Shown: in pieces, positions 54,499-61,563 of the stretch
Layout of the letters: each line of letters opens with the position of its first letter
How positions within the stretch are numbered: the first letter of the stretch is position 1
Assembly (NCBI GenBank): GCA_002730525.1
Contig: PCAK01000010.1
Location: 1 to 64,000 of the forward strand
Reading direction: 5' to 3'
DNA length: 64,000 nt
DNA from: Acidobacteriota bacterium
GTDB lineage: Bacteria; Acidobacteriota; Vicinamibacteria; Vicinamibacterales; UBA823
Translations under genes and position numbers: made by a program
Notes under the pieces: model-generated
Told to the model about the DNA's origin: nothing
Seen by the model: the letters and a program-made list of their open reading frames with translations, nothing else
The model's database searches: none

Positions 54499-55044
54499 AT
54501 GAGTGATCCGTCCGCAGGAACCACCGACCCGACGCTCGAGTCGACAACGCCTCTCGAGGCGGCCTGGTACGCCGTCTGGACCAGGTCGCGGCACGAGCAG
54601 GTCGTGCGCGAGCAGCTGGCGCAGAAGCAGATCGAAGCGTTTCTGCCCACCGTGACCCGATGGAGTCGGTGGAAAGATCGTAAGAAGAAGGTCGACTGGC
54701 CGCTGTTTCCCGGGTACTGCTTCGCCAAGTTCGATGCCTCGACGCGACTCACGGTGCTGAAGTGCGCCGGGGTCGTGAGCATCGTGTCGTTCGACGGCAC
54801 GCTCGCGCCGATTCCCAGCCAGGAGATCGACGCGATCCGCCAGCTGGTCGAGAGTGAGCTGCAGTACGACCCGTGCCCCTTCATGCACGAAGGGATGGTG
54901 GTCGAGGTCGTGCATGGGCCGCTGGCGGGCGTCGTCGGCCGGCTGGTGCGAAAGGGCGCGCATGCCCGCCTGGTGCTCTCGGTCGACCTGATCGGGCAGG
55001 CCGTGAGCGTCGACGTCGAGGCCGCCGATGTCCGACCCTACTGA
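54499..55044 (+). CDS. NusG-family transcription antiterminator (RfaH/UpxY-like paralogue)
   Basis: A 181-aa NusG-type protein. The NGN domain starts AAWYAVWTRSRHEQVVREQLAQKQIEAFLPTVTRWSRWKDRKKKVDWPLFPGYCFAKFD, and the C-terminal KOW-type domain has EGMVVEVVHGPLAGVVGRLVRKG. The W-x-x-RKKKVDWPLFPGYCF pattern is that of specialised paralogues that act on long surface-polysaccharide operons rather than of housekeeping NusG. It overlaps dusB by 17 bp. Its target operon cannot be told, but a glycan-export locus lies only ~5 kb upstream. Confidence 0.88.
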   Translation: MSDPSAGTTDPTLESTTPLEAAWYAVWTRSRHEQVVREQLAQKQIEAFLPTVTRWSRWKDRKKKVDWPLFPGYCFAKFDASTRLTVLKCAGVVSIVSFDGTLAPIPSQEIDAIRQLVESELQYDPCPFMHEGMVVEVVHGPLAGVVGRLVRKGAHARLVLSVDLIGQAVSVDVEAADVRPY

Positions 55045-56542: not shown

Positions 56543-57946
56543 TCAGGGTTGGAGCCGCTTCATCTTCTCGAGGAGCGTCGTGCGCTTCAGGTGGAGCAGG
56601 TCGGCAGCCAGGCGCTTGTTGCCGTCGGCGCGCCCGAGTGCCTGCCGGATCAGTTCGCGCTCGACGTCGTGCACGTAGCGTTCGAAGTCGAGGCCATCGT
56701 CGGGGAACGCGACGCGGACGCTCAGCCCCGGGTCGACGGCGGCCTGGATCTCCGGCGGCAGGTCGGCGGCCTCGATCTGCGTGCGGCCTTGACTGAACGC
56801 GAGTGTTCGCTCGATGACGTTCTCGAGCTGCCGGATGTTGCCCGGCCAGGCGTAGGCCATCAACTGCCGCATCGCTTCCTGCGACAGGCCGACGTCGGGC
56901 CGCGGTGGGACGAGTTCGCGTCCGAGTCGTTCGAGAAAATGTTGCGTCAGGAGCGGGATGTCGTCCCGTCGATCGCGGAGCGGCGGCAACGGAATCGGAA
57001 TCACGTTCAGTCGGTAGAACAGGTCCTCCCGAAACGTGCCATCCGCGACGAGCTGAGTCAGGTCGGAGTTGGTCGCCGCGATGACCCGCACATCGATTTT
57101 GATCTGCCGCGTGTCCCCGATCCGCTCGAGTTCCCGTTCCTGCAAGACGCGCAGCAGCTTGGCCTGCAGGGCCGGCGTCATCGTGCCGACCTCGTCGAGG
57201 AAGAGCGTGCCACGATGGGCCTGTTCGAGCCGCCCCGGCCTCGATTCGACCGCTCCGGTGAATGCGCCGCGGACGTGGCCGAACAATTCCGCCTCGAGCA
57301 GCGACTCGGGAATGGCGCCGCAGTTCAGCGCGGCGAGGCGGTGGGCGCTGCGCGGGCTGTTGTGGTGAATGGCCCGGGCCACGAGTTCCTTACCGGTCCC
57401 GGTCTCACCGGTAATCAGAATGGTACTGTTGGTCGGCGCGATCATCTTGAGCCTCTCAAAGAGGTCGCGCATCACCTGGCTGAGGCCAACCAGGCCTTCG
57501 AAGTCGAAGAAGAAATCCTGCCGGTAGCGCTCCTCGAGCTGCGAGCGCAGGTAGGCGTTCTCGCTCTTCAGGCGCCGTTGTTCGAGCGCCGCCGTGAGAA
57601 CGTGCAACAGCTCGTCGAACTGAAAGGGTTTGGTGATGAAGTCCGCCGCGCCGACCTTGATCGCCTCGACCGCACCCTTCACCGTGCCGAAGCCGGTCAC
57701 GACGATCCCGACGATCTCCGGGTAGCGGTCGATCGCCGCTTTCAGCACCTGGCTGCCGTCGACGCCGGGCAGCCTGAGATCGGTGACGACGACATCGAAG
57801 GCGAAATCCGCCAGTTTGGCGAGGGCCTGCTCCCCACTCTCCACCTGCGTGACGCTGTAGCCGTGGTCGGTCAGACGCTCGGCGGTCACCTCCCGCAGTG
57901 CCGCCTCGTCCTCGACGATCAGCAGATGTTTTTCATTTTCAGTCAT
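56543..57946 (-). CDS. Sigma-54-dependent response regulator (NtrC family)
   Basis: A 467-aa three-domain regulator. The receiver domain (about 5-120) has phospho-acceptor D56 in VVVTDLRLPG. The AAA+ domain has Walker A GETGTGKE (180-187), GAFTGA loop (227-232) and GTLFLDEVGTM. The Fis-type helix-turn-helix at the end reads GRADGNKRLAADLLHLKRTTLLEKMKRL. The intact GAFTGA loop means it should activate sigma-54 promoters. No kinase is adjacent on the same strand, but a hybrid kinase and a stand-alone phosphoacceptor domain lie within 4 kb. Confidence 0.95.
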   Translation of the reverse strand: MTENEKHLLIVEDEAALREVTAERLTDHGYSVTQVESGEQALAKLADFAFDVVVTDLRLPGVDGSQVLKAAIDRYPEIVGIVVTGFGTVKGAVEAIKVGAADFITKPFQFDELLHVLTAALEQRRLKSENAYLRSQLEERYRQDFFFDFEGLVGLSQVMRDLFERLKMIAPTNSTILITGETGTGKELVARAIHHNSPRSAHRLAALNCGAIPESLLEAELFGHVRGAFTGAVESRPGRLEQAHRGTLFLDEVGTMTPALQAKLLRVLQERELERIGDTRQIKIDVRVIAATNSDLTQLVADGTFREDLFYRLNVIPIPLPPLRDRRDDIPLLTQHFLERLGRELVPPRPDVGLSQEAMRQLMAYAWPGNIRQLENVIERTLAFSQGRTQIEAADLPPEIQAAVDPGLSVRVAFPDDGLDFERYVHDVERELIRQALGRADGNKRLAADLLHLKRTTLLEKMKRLQP

Positions 57947-58133
57947 TTAGCAGGGTGGCGGTATTTTGACACCCAGCCGTCTGGCGGTCAAGAAGGCGGC
58001 GCGGATCGTTCTATAGGCTCGGTCACGCCCTGCCGATAGTCATTGGGAACGCGGCAGAGACGCCGTGAGGGGATCGGCGTCGCGAGATTGCAGCCCAACG
58101 TTGCAAGGCTCCGCGACGCCAACGAGCAAGACC

Positions 58134-58349
58134 ATGATTGTCGACCGAAAGACCATCTCGATCATGAAGGCGTGTGAGCTGGTGGGCGTCAGCCGCCGGA
58201 CGATCTACAACTGGATCGCCAGCGGCAAGGTGGAGTACGTCCGCACGGCGGGCGGCTCGGTGCGAATCTTCGTCGACACGTTGTGGCGAGATCCGTCCGG
58301 CACCTCGAAAGCCGCGATCTGGCCAGAAACCGCCCGCAAAGAGGCCTGA
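58134..58349 (+). CDS. Small helix-turn-helix (excisionase/MerR-like) DNA-binding protein
   Basis: A 71-aa protein with one winged helix-turn-helix: TISIMKACELVGVSRRTIYNWIASGKVEYVRTAGGSVRIFVDTLWR (about residues 7-52). It is the type often annotated as excisionase-family or HTH_17. The tail is short and unstructured. The ATG at 58134 is preferred over an upstream frame with unlike sequence. There is no integrase or other phage gene nearby, so it is more likely a regulator than an excisionase. It is divergent from the NtrC-type gene and 53 bp before the phosphoacceptor gene. Confidence 0.8.
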   Translation: MIVDRKTISIMKACELVGVSRRTIYNWIASGKVEYVRTAGGSVRIFVDTLWRDPSGTSKAAIWPETARKEA

Positions 58350-58402: not shown

Positions 58403-58621
58403 GTGGACGAGCTGACAGATCTCAGCCGGCTATTTCATCGGCTGAACAACCAGCTCGGAATCATCCTCGCCAACGCTGAGCTACTCGAAGCGAAAGCCAC
58501 CGACGAGATGAGCCGATCACGTGCGGCGCAGATCGTGGCCAGCGTGCTCGATGCGATGAGCACGGCAGGCGAGATCCGCACCGATCGGGAGTCGCCCGCG
58601 TCCGACGCCTCGCACGGCTGA
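58403..58621 (+). CDS. Stand-alone histidine-kinase phosphoacceptor (DHp-like) domain
   Basis: A 72-aa protein from GTG 58403, which follows AAAGGA at a good distance. Residues 8-28 read SRLFHRLNNQLGIILANAELL, which lines up with the H-box of histidine kinases; the hybrid kinase at 59905 has GVAHELNNPLATILTWSERL. So His12 would be the phosphoacceptor. A second helix (AAQIVASVLDAMSTAGEIR) completes a two-helix hairpin. There is no ATPase domain and no room for one. It may relay phosphate or dimerise with a kinase. The frame opens further upstream but without sensible sequence. Confidence 0.65.
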   Translation: MDELTDLSRLFHRLNNQLGIILANAELLEAKATDEMSRSRAAQIVASVLDAMSTAGEIRTDRESPASDASHG

Positions 58622-58971
58622 CCGCGCGTATCCCGCCGATCCGCACCCGAGTCACGGCCTCCCACGACGTCCTACGAGAGTCAACGTGTTGGCGGCTGCA
58701 CTGTTTTGCAGTCAAATACTCGACACTTTTCGGACCGATTCTCGTCAATCCTTCCCGCTCTTTCCCGTCGGATCAATTCTGCAACCAACTGATTATGTTG
58801 AAGTTATGCGCAGTGACTCCATTGAAATCATGTTCGCTACATTTTCGTTTTTGCGGTTGGTACCTCTGTTGCGATGAAGGGCCTCGCCACCGCGGCTGAC
58901 CGGGTTCGGCCGGCGTGTCTCCAGCGTCGTCCCGTTCCGGTGCTCCGCGAGTGGCGAGGAGGGATCTCGAC
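58622..58971. other. Intergenic region upstream of the sigma-factor gene
   Basis: 350 bp without a convincing gene. The middle (58690-58875) is AT-rich compared with its surroundings and probably contains the promoter of the sigma gene. A strong AGGAGG ribosome-binding site lies at about 58957-58962. I found no sigma-54 or sigma-28 promoter with correct spacing. Confidence 0.6.
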
Positions 58972-59895
58972 ATGCCGCAGCAGCAGACTGTCACGGCTGA
59001 CCAACAGCACCGTATCGAGGCCGGCGTCCCGTTCGTGGAGGCCCTGGCCCGACGCGTCGCGGCGTCGATGCCGCACTCGATCGATATCGGGGATCTGGTG
59101 CAGGACGGGATGATCGGCTTGATCGACGCCGCGCACCGGTTCGACGCGGGGCGGGGCATCAAGTTCGAAACATTCGCCGAGCGCCGCGTGCGCGGCGCCA
59201 TGATCGACGCGCTGCGCCGCGACGCATGGCCGCGGGGCATCCGCCGGGTACGCCGCGAACTCGAGGCGGCGCGCGAGTCGCTCCGGCGAGAGCTTGGCTG
59301 CGAGCCGTCGATGGCCGACCTGGCCAAGCGCGTCGGTTCCGACGAGACTCGGCTCGGTCGCACGATCGTGCGGATCAACACGATCGAGTCGACCTCTCCC
59401 CTGGCGACGTCAGACTCGATCGACGAGGCGAGTCTGCCACCGGTCATGGTGCCGTCGGAGCCGCCATCGCCTGACAAGGCGCTGGAGCAGTGTGAGATCA
59501 AGGGCCGCGTCCGCGACGCCATCGCCTCGCTACCTCCGCGCGAGCGGAAGGTGATCGGCCTGTACTATTTCGGCGAAGTCACGATGAAACGGATCGGTGC
59601 CGAGATCGGAGTGAACGAGTCACGAGTGTCGCAGCTGCACGCGCGGGCGATCCAGCGGCTACGGAAGGCGCTCGCGCAGCAGTTCGAATCGGATGCGGCC
59701 GCGGCGAACGCCCTCGGGGCCGTGCTGGTCACGATGCCGACACGGGCCACGCGCGCGTCCCGCACCTCGGCGGCCAAGGTGAAGACACCCCGCGGCGTCG
59801 TGCTGCCGTATCAGAAGCGGAGTCGACCGAAGTCGGCGCGCCCGGCCACCCGGCCGTCGGTCGCGGCCGAGGCGCCCCGCGCCGTGGCGCGGTAG
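58972..59895 (+). CDS. RNA polymerase sigma factor of the FliA/WhiG type
   Basis: A 307-aa group 3 sigma factor. Region 2 is at about residues 20-90 (DIGDLVQDGMIGLIDAAHRFDAGRGIKFETFAERRVRGAMIDALRR). A region 3 with LEAARESLRRELGCEPSMADLAKRVG follows. Region 4 is at about 175-235 (IASLPPRERKVIGLYYFGEVTMKRIGAEIGVNESRVSQLHARAIQRLRKAL). A basic C-terminal tail of ~65 residues is unusual. No flagellar or sporulation genes are in the window, so its regulon is open. The start at 58972 is supported by a perfect AGGAGG. Confidence 0.92.
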   Translation: MPQQQTVTADQQHRIEAGVPFVEALARRVAASMPHSIDIGDLVQDGMIGLIDAAHRFDAGRGIKFETFAERRVRGAMIDALRRDAWPRGIRRVRRELEAARESLRRELGCEPSMADLAKRVGSDETRLGRTIVRINTIESTSPLATSDSIDEASLPPVMVPSEPPSPDKALEQCEIKGRVRDAIASLPPRERKVIGLYYFGEVTMKRIGAEIGVNESRVSQLHARAIQRLRKALAQQFESDAAAANALGAVLVTMPTRATRASRTSAAKVKTPRGVVLPYQKRSRPKSARPATRPSVAAEAPRAVAR

Positions 59896-59904
59896 CGGGA
59901 CCGA

Positions 59905-61563
59905 TCAGGCCAGGACTTCGCGCGCGACTCGAAGCAGATCGCCGAGTCGGAACGGCTTGGCGAGCCACCGGCAGCCGGTGTCGTCGAGGAACCGTTCGGC
60001 ATCGGTGCCGGCGACATCGCCGGTCACGAACACGATTCGCTGCTTGAGGTTGGGCGCGATCTTGGCGGCGGCTTGGTAGAACGCCGTGCCGTCCAGGCGC
60101 GGCATCTTCAGGTCACAGATCACGAGGTCATAGGTGCGCTCGCGCACGCGTGCGAGCGCGGCCTCGCCGTCACCCGCGCGGTCGACGCGGAAACCCGCAT
60201 CGCCGAGCGCCTCGGCGACCGCGGCCGCCAGCGAGGGTTCATCCTCGACGAGGAGCACGACGGCGCCGCCCCCGATGTTCGCGGGCTGGACCGCGGGCGC
60301 CGGCGCGGGCAATCGGATCTTTCCAGCCGTAGCCGGGAACTCCAGCCGGAACGTCGCGCCCTCGTCCGGCGCGGAGGTCAACCCGATGCGCCCGCCGTGT
60401 TCCTGCATGATCGCGTAGGCGACAGTCAGGCCGAGGCCGGTGCCCTTGCCGACCTGTTTGGTCGTGAAGAACGGGTCGAAGATACGGCCCTGCACTTCAT
60501 CCGGAACGCCCGGGCCATCGTCGCTGACCTCGAGCACGACGGACTCGGCTTCGGCGTCGTGCCACGTTCGCGTGACGATGGTGCCCTGTCCGCGCGCCGC
60601 CAGCATGGCCTGCTCGGCGTTGATGACGAGGTTGAGGAGGACCTGCTTCACCTGGTGAGGGTCGGCGAAGACCTGTGGGAGGCCGACAGCCAAGGCGTCG
60701 ATGACCGAGATATTCGAGACCCGCTGTTCGTACGCGCGCAGTGACATGGTCTCACGCACGACCTGATTGACATCGACCATGGCGCGCGTCGTGTGCCGCT
60801 TGCGGGCGAAGGTCAGGAGGTTTCGGACGATCTTCGCGGCGCGTTCGGATTCGCCGAGGATCGTTTCGAGACCACGGCGCGTCGCGTCGTCCACGGTCCG
60901 TTCGGCCAGCCGCTCGGACCAGGTCAGAATCGTGGCCAGGGGGTTGTTCAGTTCGTGGGCGACACCCGAGATCGTCTGTCCCAGTGCCGCGAGCTTCTCG
61001 GCCTGGAGCAGCTGGTGGTAGAGATCACGCGCTTGATCTTCCAGCTTCTTCCGTTCGCTGACGTCGCGCATCAGCGCTTCGACGCGGAGCGCGCTCCCGC
61101 GTCTGCGTTCGGCTCGGGCCGTGACCTCGACCCACGTCGGCGTCCGGTCGGCCCGCCGCAGGCGGAGGAGGTAGTCGGTCACGGCGCCATCACGGGTGAG
61201 TCGGTCGATGAATGCCGCGCGCGCCTGAGGGTCGACGAAACGGTCGGCTTCGAACGGCACCACGGCCGCGTGGGCGGTCTCCGTCGGGTAGCCGAACATG
61301 AGCTTCAGGTGCGGGTTGGCAACGATGGTGTCGGTCGCGTCGGCCGTGAGGTTACCGATGTAGACACCCTCGTGCACCACCTCGAACAGACGCGCGAACG
61401 CCGTGGCGGGCGGGTTTCGGGGCTTGCGCGGTGCGGGCTTGCGCGTGGATGTTCGAGCGAGTTTTCGGGCGGGCTTTCGAGCGGGCTTCGCTGAGCGCGT
61501 CCGGGACACGGTTCGCTTGCGAGTCACGGGGTGGGCTGCGCCACTCTGGGGGCCTAAGCGCAC
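59905..61563 (-). CDS. Hybrid sensor histidine kinase (PAS-HisKA-HATPase-REC)
   Basis: A 552-aa protein without a membrane segment. A basic repeat-like start (RKPARKLARTSTRKPAPRKPRNP) is followed by a PAS domain (about 55-170). The phosphoacceptor domain has H203 in GVAHELNNP. The ATP-binding domain has NLVINAEQAM, DDGPGVP, FFTTKQVGKGTGLGLTVAYAI. The receiver domain has D484 in VICDLKMPRLDG. It probably senses a cytoplasmic signal. It converges on the sigma gene (9 bp) and follows the PCYCGC gene by 44 bp on the same strand. The start is a GTG; an in-frame GTG 12 codons later is also possible. Confidence 0.92.
   Translation of the reverse strand: MRLGPQSGAAHPVTRKRTVSRTRSAKPARKPARKLARTSTRKPAPRKPRNPPATAFARLFEVVHEGVYIGNLTADATDTIVANPHLKLMFGYPTETAHAAVVPFEADRFVDPQARAAFIDRLTRDGAVTDYLLRLRRADRTPTWVEVTARAERRRGSALRVEALMRDVSERKKLEDQARDLYHQLLQAEKLAALGQTISGVAHELNNPLATILTWSERLAERTVDDATRRGLETILGESERAAKIVRNLLTFARKRHTTRAMVDVNQVVRETMSLRAYEQRVSNISVIDALAVGLPQVFADPHQVKQVLLNLVINAEQAMLAARGQGTIVTRTWHDAEAESVVLEVSDDGPGVPDEVQGRIFDPFFTTKQVGKGTGLGLTVAYAIMQEHGGRIGLTSAPDEGATFRLEFPATAGKIRLPAPAPAVQPANIGGGAVVLLVEDEPSLAAAVAEALGDAGFRVDRAGDGEAALARVRERTYDLVICDLKMPRLDGTAFYQAAAKIAPNLKQRIVFVTGDVAGTDAERFLDDTGCRWLAKPFRLGDLLRVAREVLA

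Follow-up and report, generated by a model that had tools for sequence, protein, structure and literature searches.

The window, the whole 64,000-nucleotide stretch of DNA that was analyzed, carries a small open reading frame, here called P72, within a cluster of regulatory genes. The genes, predicted promoters and key codons lie as follows.

56543..57946, minus strand: NtrC-type response regulator with a receiver (REC) domain (D56), a sigma-54 AAA+ domain and a Fis-type HTH
58011..58038, plus strand: FliA/WhiG-type promoter CTATAG-N16-CCGATA facing HTH-P72, predicted by motif
58134..58349, plus strand: HTH_17/excisionase-type DNA-binding protein (MerR/BldC-like), 71 aa, start placed by eye within the open reading frame 58065-58349
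58403..58621, plus strand: P72, GTG start, TGA stop, 72-aa DHp-only protein
58436-58438, plus strand: codon of P72 H12, the putative phosphoacceptor His
58448-58450, plus strand: codon of P72 N16 (H+4), the Asn four residues past the His
58858..58872, plus strand: sigma-54 promoter TGGTAC-N5-TTGC ahead of the sigma gene, predicted by motif
58972..59895, plus strand: FliA/WhiG-like sigma factor, start placed by eye within the open reading frame 58915-59895
59905..61563, minus strand: hybrid histidine kinase, PAS-HisKA (H203)-HATPase-REC (D484)

Translation of the P72 frame, from the GTG at 58403 to the TGA at 58621, gives a protein of 72 residues that opens VDELTDLSRLFHRLNNQLGIILANAELLEAK. By eye, a Shine-Dalgarno-like AAAGGA lies just 5′ of this GTG, which stands 11 codons ahead of H12, a spacing common in relatives. 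The frame is open further 5′, but among the starts considered the best Shine-Dalgarno-like sequence belongs to GTG 58403, which is the predicted start codon. When genome contigs of bacteria and archaea were searched in translation, relatives turned up at 69 loci, nearly all titled Acidobacteria. With a profile built from 70 family members and a threshold of E ≤ 1e-8, a match was found in 133/162 genomes of the order, including 88 of the 100 near-complete ones, always as a single copy; the source genome likewise has one. In a sample of 297 genomes from the phylum, the 26 matches below 1e-20 all fell within Vicinamibacterales, and the next best match had an E-value of 2.6e-6. Pairwise nucleotide differences among 94 distinct cores were distributed over codon positions 1, 2 and 3 in the proportions 15237 : 4178 : 43811. 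This codon-position bias, along with the conservation across 69 relatives and 133/162 genomes, rules out a chance open reading frame. On this sequence evidence, P72 is a real gene under purifying selection that has spread through the order.

An AlphaFold2 model computed from a 70-row alignment consists of two helices, at residues 2-31 and 35-63, with a mean pLDDT of 88; the helix blocks reach 94-98 and the tail is of low confidence. This is the helical hairpin that the original prediction had set as its test. Because the two helices fill residues 2-63, P72 has no ATPase, sensor or output domain. HisKA (PF00512) was the sole Pfam family that matched P72 at E ≤ 1, with 13.4 bits and thus below the cut-off of 26.9, and HisKA matches at E ≤ 1 were obtained for 14/70 family members (best 0.0092). 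P72 did not match Hpt (PF01627). When the P72 family was compared with the HisKA domains of the neighboring kinases, hhalign returned 96.5% (E 9e-10) and placed H-box on H-box, whereas the controls (another kinase segment, an NtrC segment and two sigma regions) gave 0.1-1.2%. In the phylum sample, weaker P72-profile matches in other genomes lay mostly inside long frames, and those scanned in L083, L084, L086 and L090 were HisKA by Pfam at the matched place. The hhalign result and the identity of these weaker matches identify P72 as related to the DHp phosphoacceptor domain, although its score falls under the Pfam cut-off. The claims that this 72-residue protein is only a phosphoacceptor domain and that it resembles the H-box of sensor kinases, HELNNPL in the nearby hybrid kinase, where that motif is indeed present, are thus borne out.

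Other comparisons were less informative. Structural neighbors of the model (VIA-align 2) included the DHp domains of DesK, ERS1, CpxA, ZraS and ShkA among many unrelated hairpins; Z-scores were 7.6-9.3, and those of the DHp domains (8-9) lay inside the range of the unrelated hairpins, so the fold alone neither proves nor excludes a DHp domain. Assuming no preceding gap, H12 aligns with residue 188 of DesK, 353 of ERS1, 248 of CpxA, 254 of ZraS and approximately 23 of ShkA, which we take to be, or to lie near, their phospho-His. A profile search of PDB sequences with P72 gave two chance-level matches only, and NCBIfam matches at E 0.03-0.05, well short of the cut-off, to a Rho-binding antiterminator and a peptidoglycan hydrolase were dismissed as chance.

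Some further short proteins came to light in the same searches. In two genomes of another Acidobacteriota family (G005 and G021), short proteins at L081:4694-5050 and L082:4557-4805 carry an H-box-like HKLRN-LGMIS---ELL and match the P72 profile at E ~3e-6. Their neighbors are, by eye, flagellar genes (FlgE-, FliL-, FliN- and FliP-like), one of the two matches HisKA at E 0.013, and they may represent another type of mini-DHp, one linked to flagella. At L087:4848-5120 (G183), an open reading frame of ~90 aa that contains VLHQLNNQLGLVVG lies near hybrid-kinase-like genes; it has no Pfam match and is a candidate free-standing DHp-like piece.

Residues were counted in 93 distinct protein cores (94 nucleotide cores) from 125 matches of more than 60 bits at all loci, a set in which the same genome can appear under two handles and which is conditioned on recognizable members. 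H12, L14, N16, L18, G19, L22 and E26 are invariant (93/93), and the expectation that His12 would be conserved in homologs is therefore upheld. N15 is present in 90/93 and Q17 in 82/93. The H+1 position is R in 71 cores, Q in 7, K in 4, T in 3, D in 3, L in 2, S in 2 and A in 1; an acidic residue there is accordingly rare (D 3/93, E 0/93) and has been lost in 90/93. The neighboring kinase has H, E at H+1 and N at H+4 in 80/80 aligned sequences, and the receiver Asp is kept in 81/81 aligned kinases and 124/124 aligned NtrC proteins. In HisKA kinases (CrdS and three others), passages of Willett and Kirby (PMC3510030) describe the H+1 acid as needed for kinase activity only and the Thr or Asn at H+4 as needed for phosphatase activity only. 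With the H+4 Asn present and the H+1 acid lost, P72 has a kinase-minus, phosphatase-plus pattern in which the His is kept.

The gene order is nearly fixed: NtrC (minus), HTH (plus), P72 (plus), sigma (plus), hybrid kinase (minus). Among loci with enough flanking sequence, leaving aside the source-genome locus and those where the contig ended too soon, P72 was accompanied by the HTH gene in 69/69, the sigma gene in 60/60, the NtrC gene in 54/58 and the kinase gene in 48/52, and all 53/53 kinase matches in P72 loci reached the C-terminal REC. The sigma factor of the window scored 188.5 bits, below the TIGR02479 cut-off of 189.6. The neighborhood survey suggested in the original prediction thus yielded a nearly fixed module, of which that prediction had overlooked the HTH operon partner, the sigma factor, the promoters and the membership of the kinase and NtrC. 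It was mistaken in giving the NtrC-type regulator no neighboring kinase on the same strand: the hybrid kinase is also on the minus strand, 2 kb away, and this arrangement is conserved.

Exceptions to the module are few. The HTH gene was undetected in nine further loci (L089, L116-L120 and L127-L129), where P72 is still found with sigma, kinase and NtrC. P72 is absent between HTH and sigma in L104, L107, L108 and L207. Of these, L104 and L107 still have a complete hybrid kinase, and L104 also has NtrC, so P72 is not always needed. At L207 (G199) the kinase stops after the ATPase domain and has no REC; in G329 (L108) no such kinase was found anywhere in the genome at E ≤ 1e-90. In G347, HTH, P72 and sigma are still together, and the kinase (with REC) and NtrC are on another contig. 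G237, which is 100% complete, has P72 and NtrC and no such kinase at E ≤ 1e-90. Absences elsewhere in G377, G374 and G329 are uncertain because these assemblies are 82-90% complete.

Several observations were made around the module. A sigma-54-type AAA+ protein at L067:6362-7747, beside the sigma gene, seems by eye to have no receiver domain. Records titled Woeseiaceae, Acidimicrobiia and Bifidobacterium breve (L007, L023, L037 and L045) contain the module and are probably mis-labeled bins. Upstream of the module in the window, a NusG-like protein is encoded at 54499-55044, in a syntenic stretch with SurA-like and dus-like genes (names by eye).

Promoter motifs were assigned from the consensus sequences of FliA/WhiG and sigma-54 promoters. 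TGGYAY-N5-TTGC occurs before the sigma gene on the coding strand in 63/67 loci (0.1 expected from shuffled gaps, 0 on the other strand), and is also found in all four P72-less loci. Facing HTH-P72, CTA-N16..20-CCGATA is present in 45/58 loci, again compared with an expectation of 0.1 and with none on the opposite strand. In 8/9 HTH-less loci the FliA/WhiG-type motif stands directly ahead of P72, 56-122 bases 5′ of the His codon, which makes P72 itself a likely sigma target. Palindromes of the form GTCAA-N3..7-TTGRC, found in 42/67 P72-sigma gaps and, on the ntrC strand, in 28/58 ntrC-HTH gaps, are likely NtrC binding sites, including for autoregulation; the exact form GTCAA-N5-TTGAC of the suspected NtrC site was absent in 67/67 P72-sigma gaps. 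The conserved motifs imply a loop in which NtrC drives the sigma gene via sigma-54 and the sigma factor would in turn drive HTH-P72.

Only a strict form of the sigma promoter pattern was used genome-wide, since a loose form gave 10 matches against 15 in the control in the source genome and was dropped. The strict pattern had 3 matches in the source genome, including the HTH-P72 one (control 0), and 63 matches across 40 genomes of the order compared with 14 in the reversed control. One of the source-genome matches, at C12, deviates from the consensus and lies inside a gene. Another, at L139:5460-5487 (minus strand), precedes a gene for a protein with, by eye, a long coiled coil and probably a single membrane segment, and the same site and gene occur in G245. 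Twenty further strict-pattern sites were fetched; one precedes the HTH gene itself, and most of the others lie within ~100 bases ahead of envelope-type genes, whose products resemble, by eye, lipoproteins, outer-membrane proteins, lytic transglycosylases and NlpC/P60-type proteins. Flagellin had no match in the source genome, which argues against a flagellar role.

Candidate partners of P72 were sought by co-evolution, from pairwise P72 distances after subtraction of the part explained by the kinase ATPase and NtrC AAA+ domains, in 58 mutually related loci that had all domains and less than 25% gaps (L071-L080 were left out). The residual correlation was 0.44 with the kinase DHp (5-95% bootstrap 0.23-0.58), 0.29 with the NtrC REC (0.15-0.41) and 0.28 with the kinase REC (0.13-0.40). 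None was seen with the kinase PAS (-0.04), the NtrC HTH (0.02) or sigma regions 2 and 4 (0.03 and 0.00); two domains in this comparison served as same-gene controls and stood at zero. In a first version with 56 loci, the HTH had a partial r of -0.13, and a multiple regression on those loci gave -0.005 for the kinase REC, 0.41 for DHp, 0.28 for the NtrC REC and 0.21 for sigma, so the kinase REC has soft backing and sigma is not fully set aside as a partner. Correlative and drawn from related loci, the pattern favors phosphotransfer domains rather than sigma as the partners of P72. The source genome encodes five HisKA kinases, and because the four besides that of the module end after HATPase (C-termini read, two also by Pfam), the module kinase is the only hybrid one among them. 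No Hpt protein over the cut-off was found in the source genome by a search that was positive in 8/14 control genomes.

We propose that P72 is a kinase-dead DHp domain that occurs on its own in nature; as a minimal DHp-only protein for phosphotransfer or phosphatase activity, it would act on the two receivers of its module under control of the module's output, and we give this explanation as a whole a probability of roughly 0.6. Its computed basis is the gene, its family, the invariant residues, the domain relationship, the synteny and the promoter motifs; from these we infer a dimer, its docking, all of the chemistry, the pairing of promoters with factors and the direction in which P72 acts. 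Two copies would pair into the usual four-helix bundle with H12 and N16 exposed, and this dimer would dock the receiver of the NtrC-type regulator (D56) and that of the hybrid kinase (D484). Lacking both an ATPase domain and an acidic residue next to H12, P72 should be unable to make phosphohistidine from ATP, and its chemistry would be limited to accepting, handing on or hydrolyzing receiver phosphoryl groups. The hybrid kinase would act on NtrC, phosphorylated NtrC (NtrC~P) with sigma-54 would switch on the FliA/WhiG-like sigma, and this sigma would transcribe HTH-P72 as well as envelope-type genes. Since the sigma transcribes HTH-P72 in the proposed loop, the amount of P72 would rise when the pathway is on and re-set NtrC phosphorylation. 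Standing against this explanation are the loss of P72 beside complete hybrid kinases in L104 and L107, the presence of P72 and NtrC without such a kinase in G237 and the HisKA score below the Pfam cut-off. Isolated DHp domains bear on it from both sides: an excerpt of PMC5727384 describes the HK853 DHp as a homodimer that binds and dephosphorylates its regulator, and one of PMC8971529 states that, in mammalian cells and in disagreement with the original report, phosphatase activity was not apparent for DHp-only EnvZ.

What P72 would do at the receivers can be read in two ways. Its His may shuttle phosphoryl groups between the two receivers as a minimal ChpT/Spo0B-like relay step, possibly in both directions, and this still tentative reading is favored by the invariant His, by G199, where P72 and the kinase REC are both absent, and by the presence of only one hybrid kinase. 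A Spo0B-like phosphotransfer role had been suggested for P72 at the outset; it survives as one of two leading readings, given that P72 co-evolves with the receivers of both neighbors, and it carries the same weight as phosphatase activity. Shuttling is doubtful in its strict form, an obligatory four-step phosphorelay resembling CckA-ChpT-CtrA, in which phosphate would pass from kinase H203 to REC D484 to P72 H12 to NtrC D56 and NtrC could not be activated without P72. Such a relay would fit a genome in which the module kinase is the only hybrid among five HisKA kinases and no Hpt passes the cut-off, an invariant H12 that co-evolves with both RECs, and the double absence in G199. It is difficult to reconcile with hybrid kinases that lack P72 in L104 and L107, with P72 that lacks the kinase in G237, and with a P72 that is apparently made only after the output sigma, which would be odd for an obligatory upstream step. 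In the second reading, equally tentative, P72 would be a dedicated feedback phosphatase that only dephosphorylates NtrC~P through N16, with H12 assisting and not carrying phosphate. The retained Asn and lost H+1 acid, a kinase-minus, phosphatase-plus signature in the terms of passages of PMC3510030, the output-driven promoter motif and the dispensability of P72 in L104 and L107 favor negative feedback of this kind, but the strict invariance of H12 and the equal co-evolution with the kinase REC suggest more than hydrolysis, and P72 and the kinase REC are jointly missing in G199. One protein may do both.

Two explanations that place P72 away from receiver chemistry appear unlikely. As an anti-sigma or sigma-modulating protein in the manner of RsiG or FlgM, P72 would act on the adjacent FliA/WhiG-like sigma, which it adjoins in 60/60 loci, and a small helical anti-sigma, RsiG, is described for WhiG in sections of PMC8325347. 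The RsiG signature E(X)3S(X)2R(X)3Q(X)3D is found in 0/93 P72 sequences, as is a relaxed form (0/93), Pfam FlgM does not match P72 at E ≤ 1, residual co-evolution with sigma regions 2 or 4 is missing in the 58 loci (with a weak positive weight in the 56-locus regression), and the invariant His/Asn pair would be left without an explanation. It is similarly improbable that P72 is a decoy that forms mixed dimers with the DHp of the hybrid kinase and blocks autophosphorylation, in line with the dimerizing kinase inhibitor that the original prediction offered as its alternative. Support for this is indirect: the strongest residual co-evolution of P72 (0.44) is with that domain, but such a correlation is equally expected if P72 and the kinase DHp dock the same receivers; the invariant H12 and N16 and the lost acid better fit chemistry on receivers, and P72 is kept in G237 without that kinase. 

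Returning to P72 as a receiver-directed DHp protein, its boldest form is a possibility that we advance with caution: a free-standing DHp that shuttles phosphate between a sigma-54 activator and the REC of the one HisKA-type hybrid kinase in the genome. It would be the smallest natural His-Asp signaling protein yet seen, its supply would be set by a WhiG-like sigma, and it would close a sigma-54 to sigma-28-type cascade in a flagellin-less bacterium.

We found no description of a natural DHp-only protein and nothing on this regulatory module in the open-access literature. To our knowledge, DHp domains outside kinases otherwise occur only in truncated laboratory constructs or joined to either a degenerate ATPase domain or sensor domains. 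If our proposal is true, evolution has released a DHp domain from kinases as a working protein, P72 is a natural test bed for phosphate relay or removal by a DHp alone, and an uncharacterized sigma-54/WhiG-like loop operates across Vicinamibacterales (Acidobacteriota), an order with few studied regulators.

The DHp of sensor kinases (PF00512) shares with P72 the H-box register, the His and the H+4 Asn, and the hairpin; P72 differs in being a separate 72-aa gene, in having no ATPase domain, in the loss of the H+1 acid and in scoring below the Pfam cut-off. The isolated DHp constructs of EnvZ and HK853 have the same domain content but are laboratory truncations, whereas P72 is a natural gene. 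ChpT and Spo0B resemble P72 in combining a DHp-type hairpin and a phosphoacceptor-like His with no autokinase ability, and ChpT has as its partners a hybrid kinase, CckA, and a regulator that binds DNA, as would be the case in the P72 module. Unlike either of them, P72 is apparently under the output sigma of its own pathway, as predicted from the motif. Spo0B retains a degenerate ATPase-like domain. So does ChpT, at its C-terminus, according to portions of PMC3433190 and PMC9981736, and P72 has none. Archaeal "HisKA, no HATPase" proteins, as outlined in part of PMC5847659, have a HisKA-like domain in which the His is conserved but lack HATPase, and they have been proposed to act in phosphotransfer or as phosphatases. 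The same source gives them N-terminal sensor domains, for which P72, with helix 1 starting at residue 2, has no room, and the setting of P72 is instead a bacterial sigma-54/WhiG-type module. RsiG is likewise a small helical protein tied to a FliA/WhiG-like sigma in the account excerpted from PMC8325347, but P72 does not have a c-di-GMP motif (0/93). The ingredients of P72 are thus known, and their arrangement is new.
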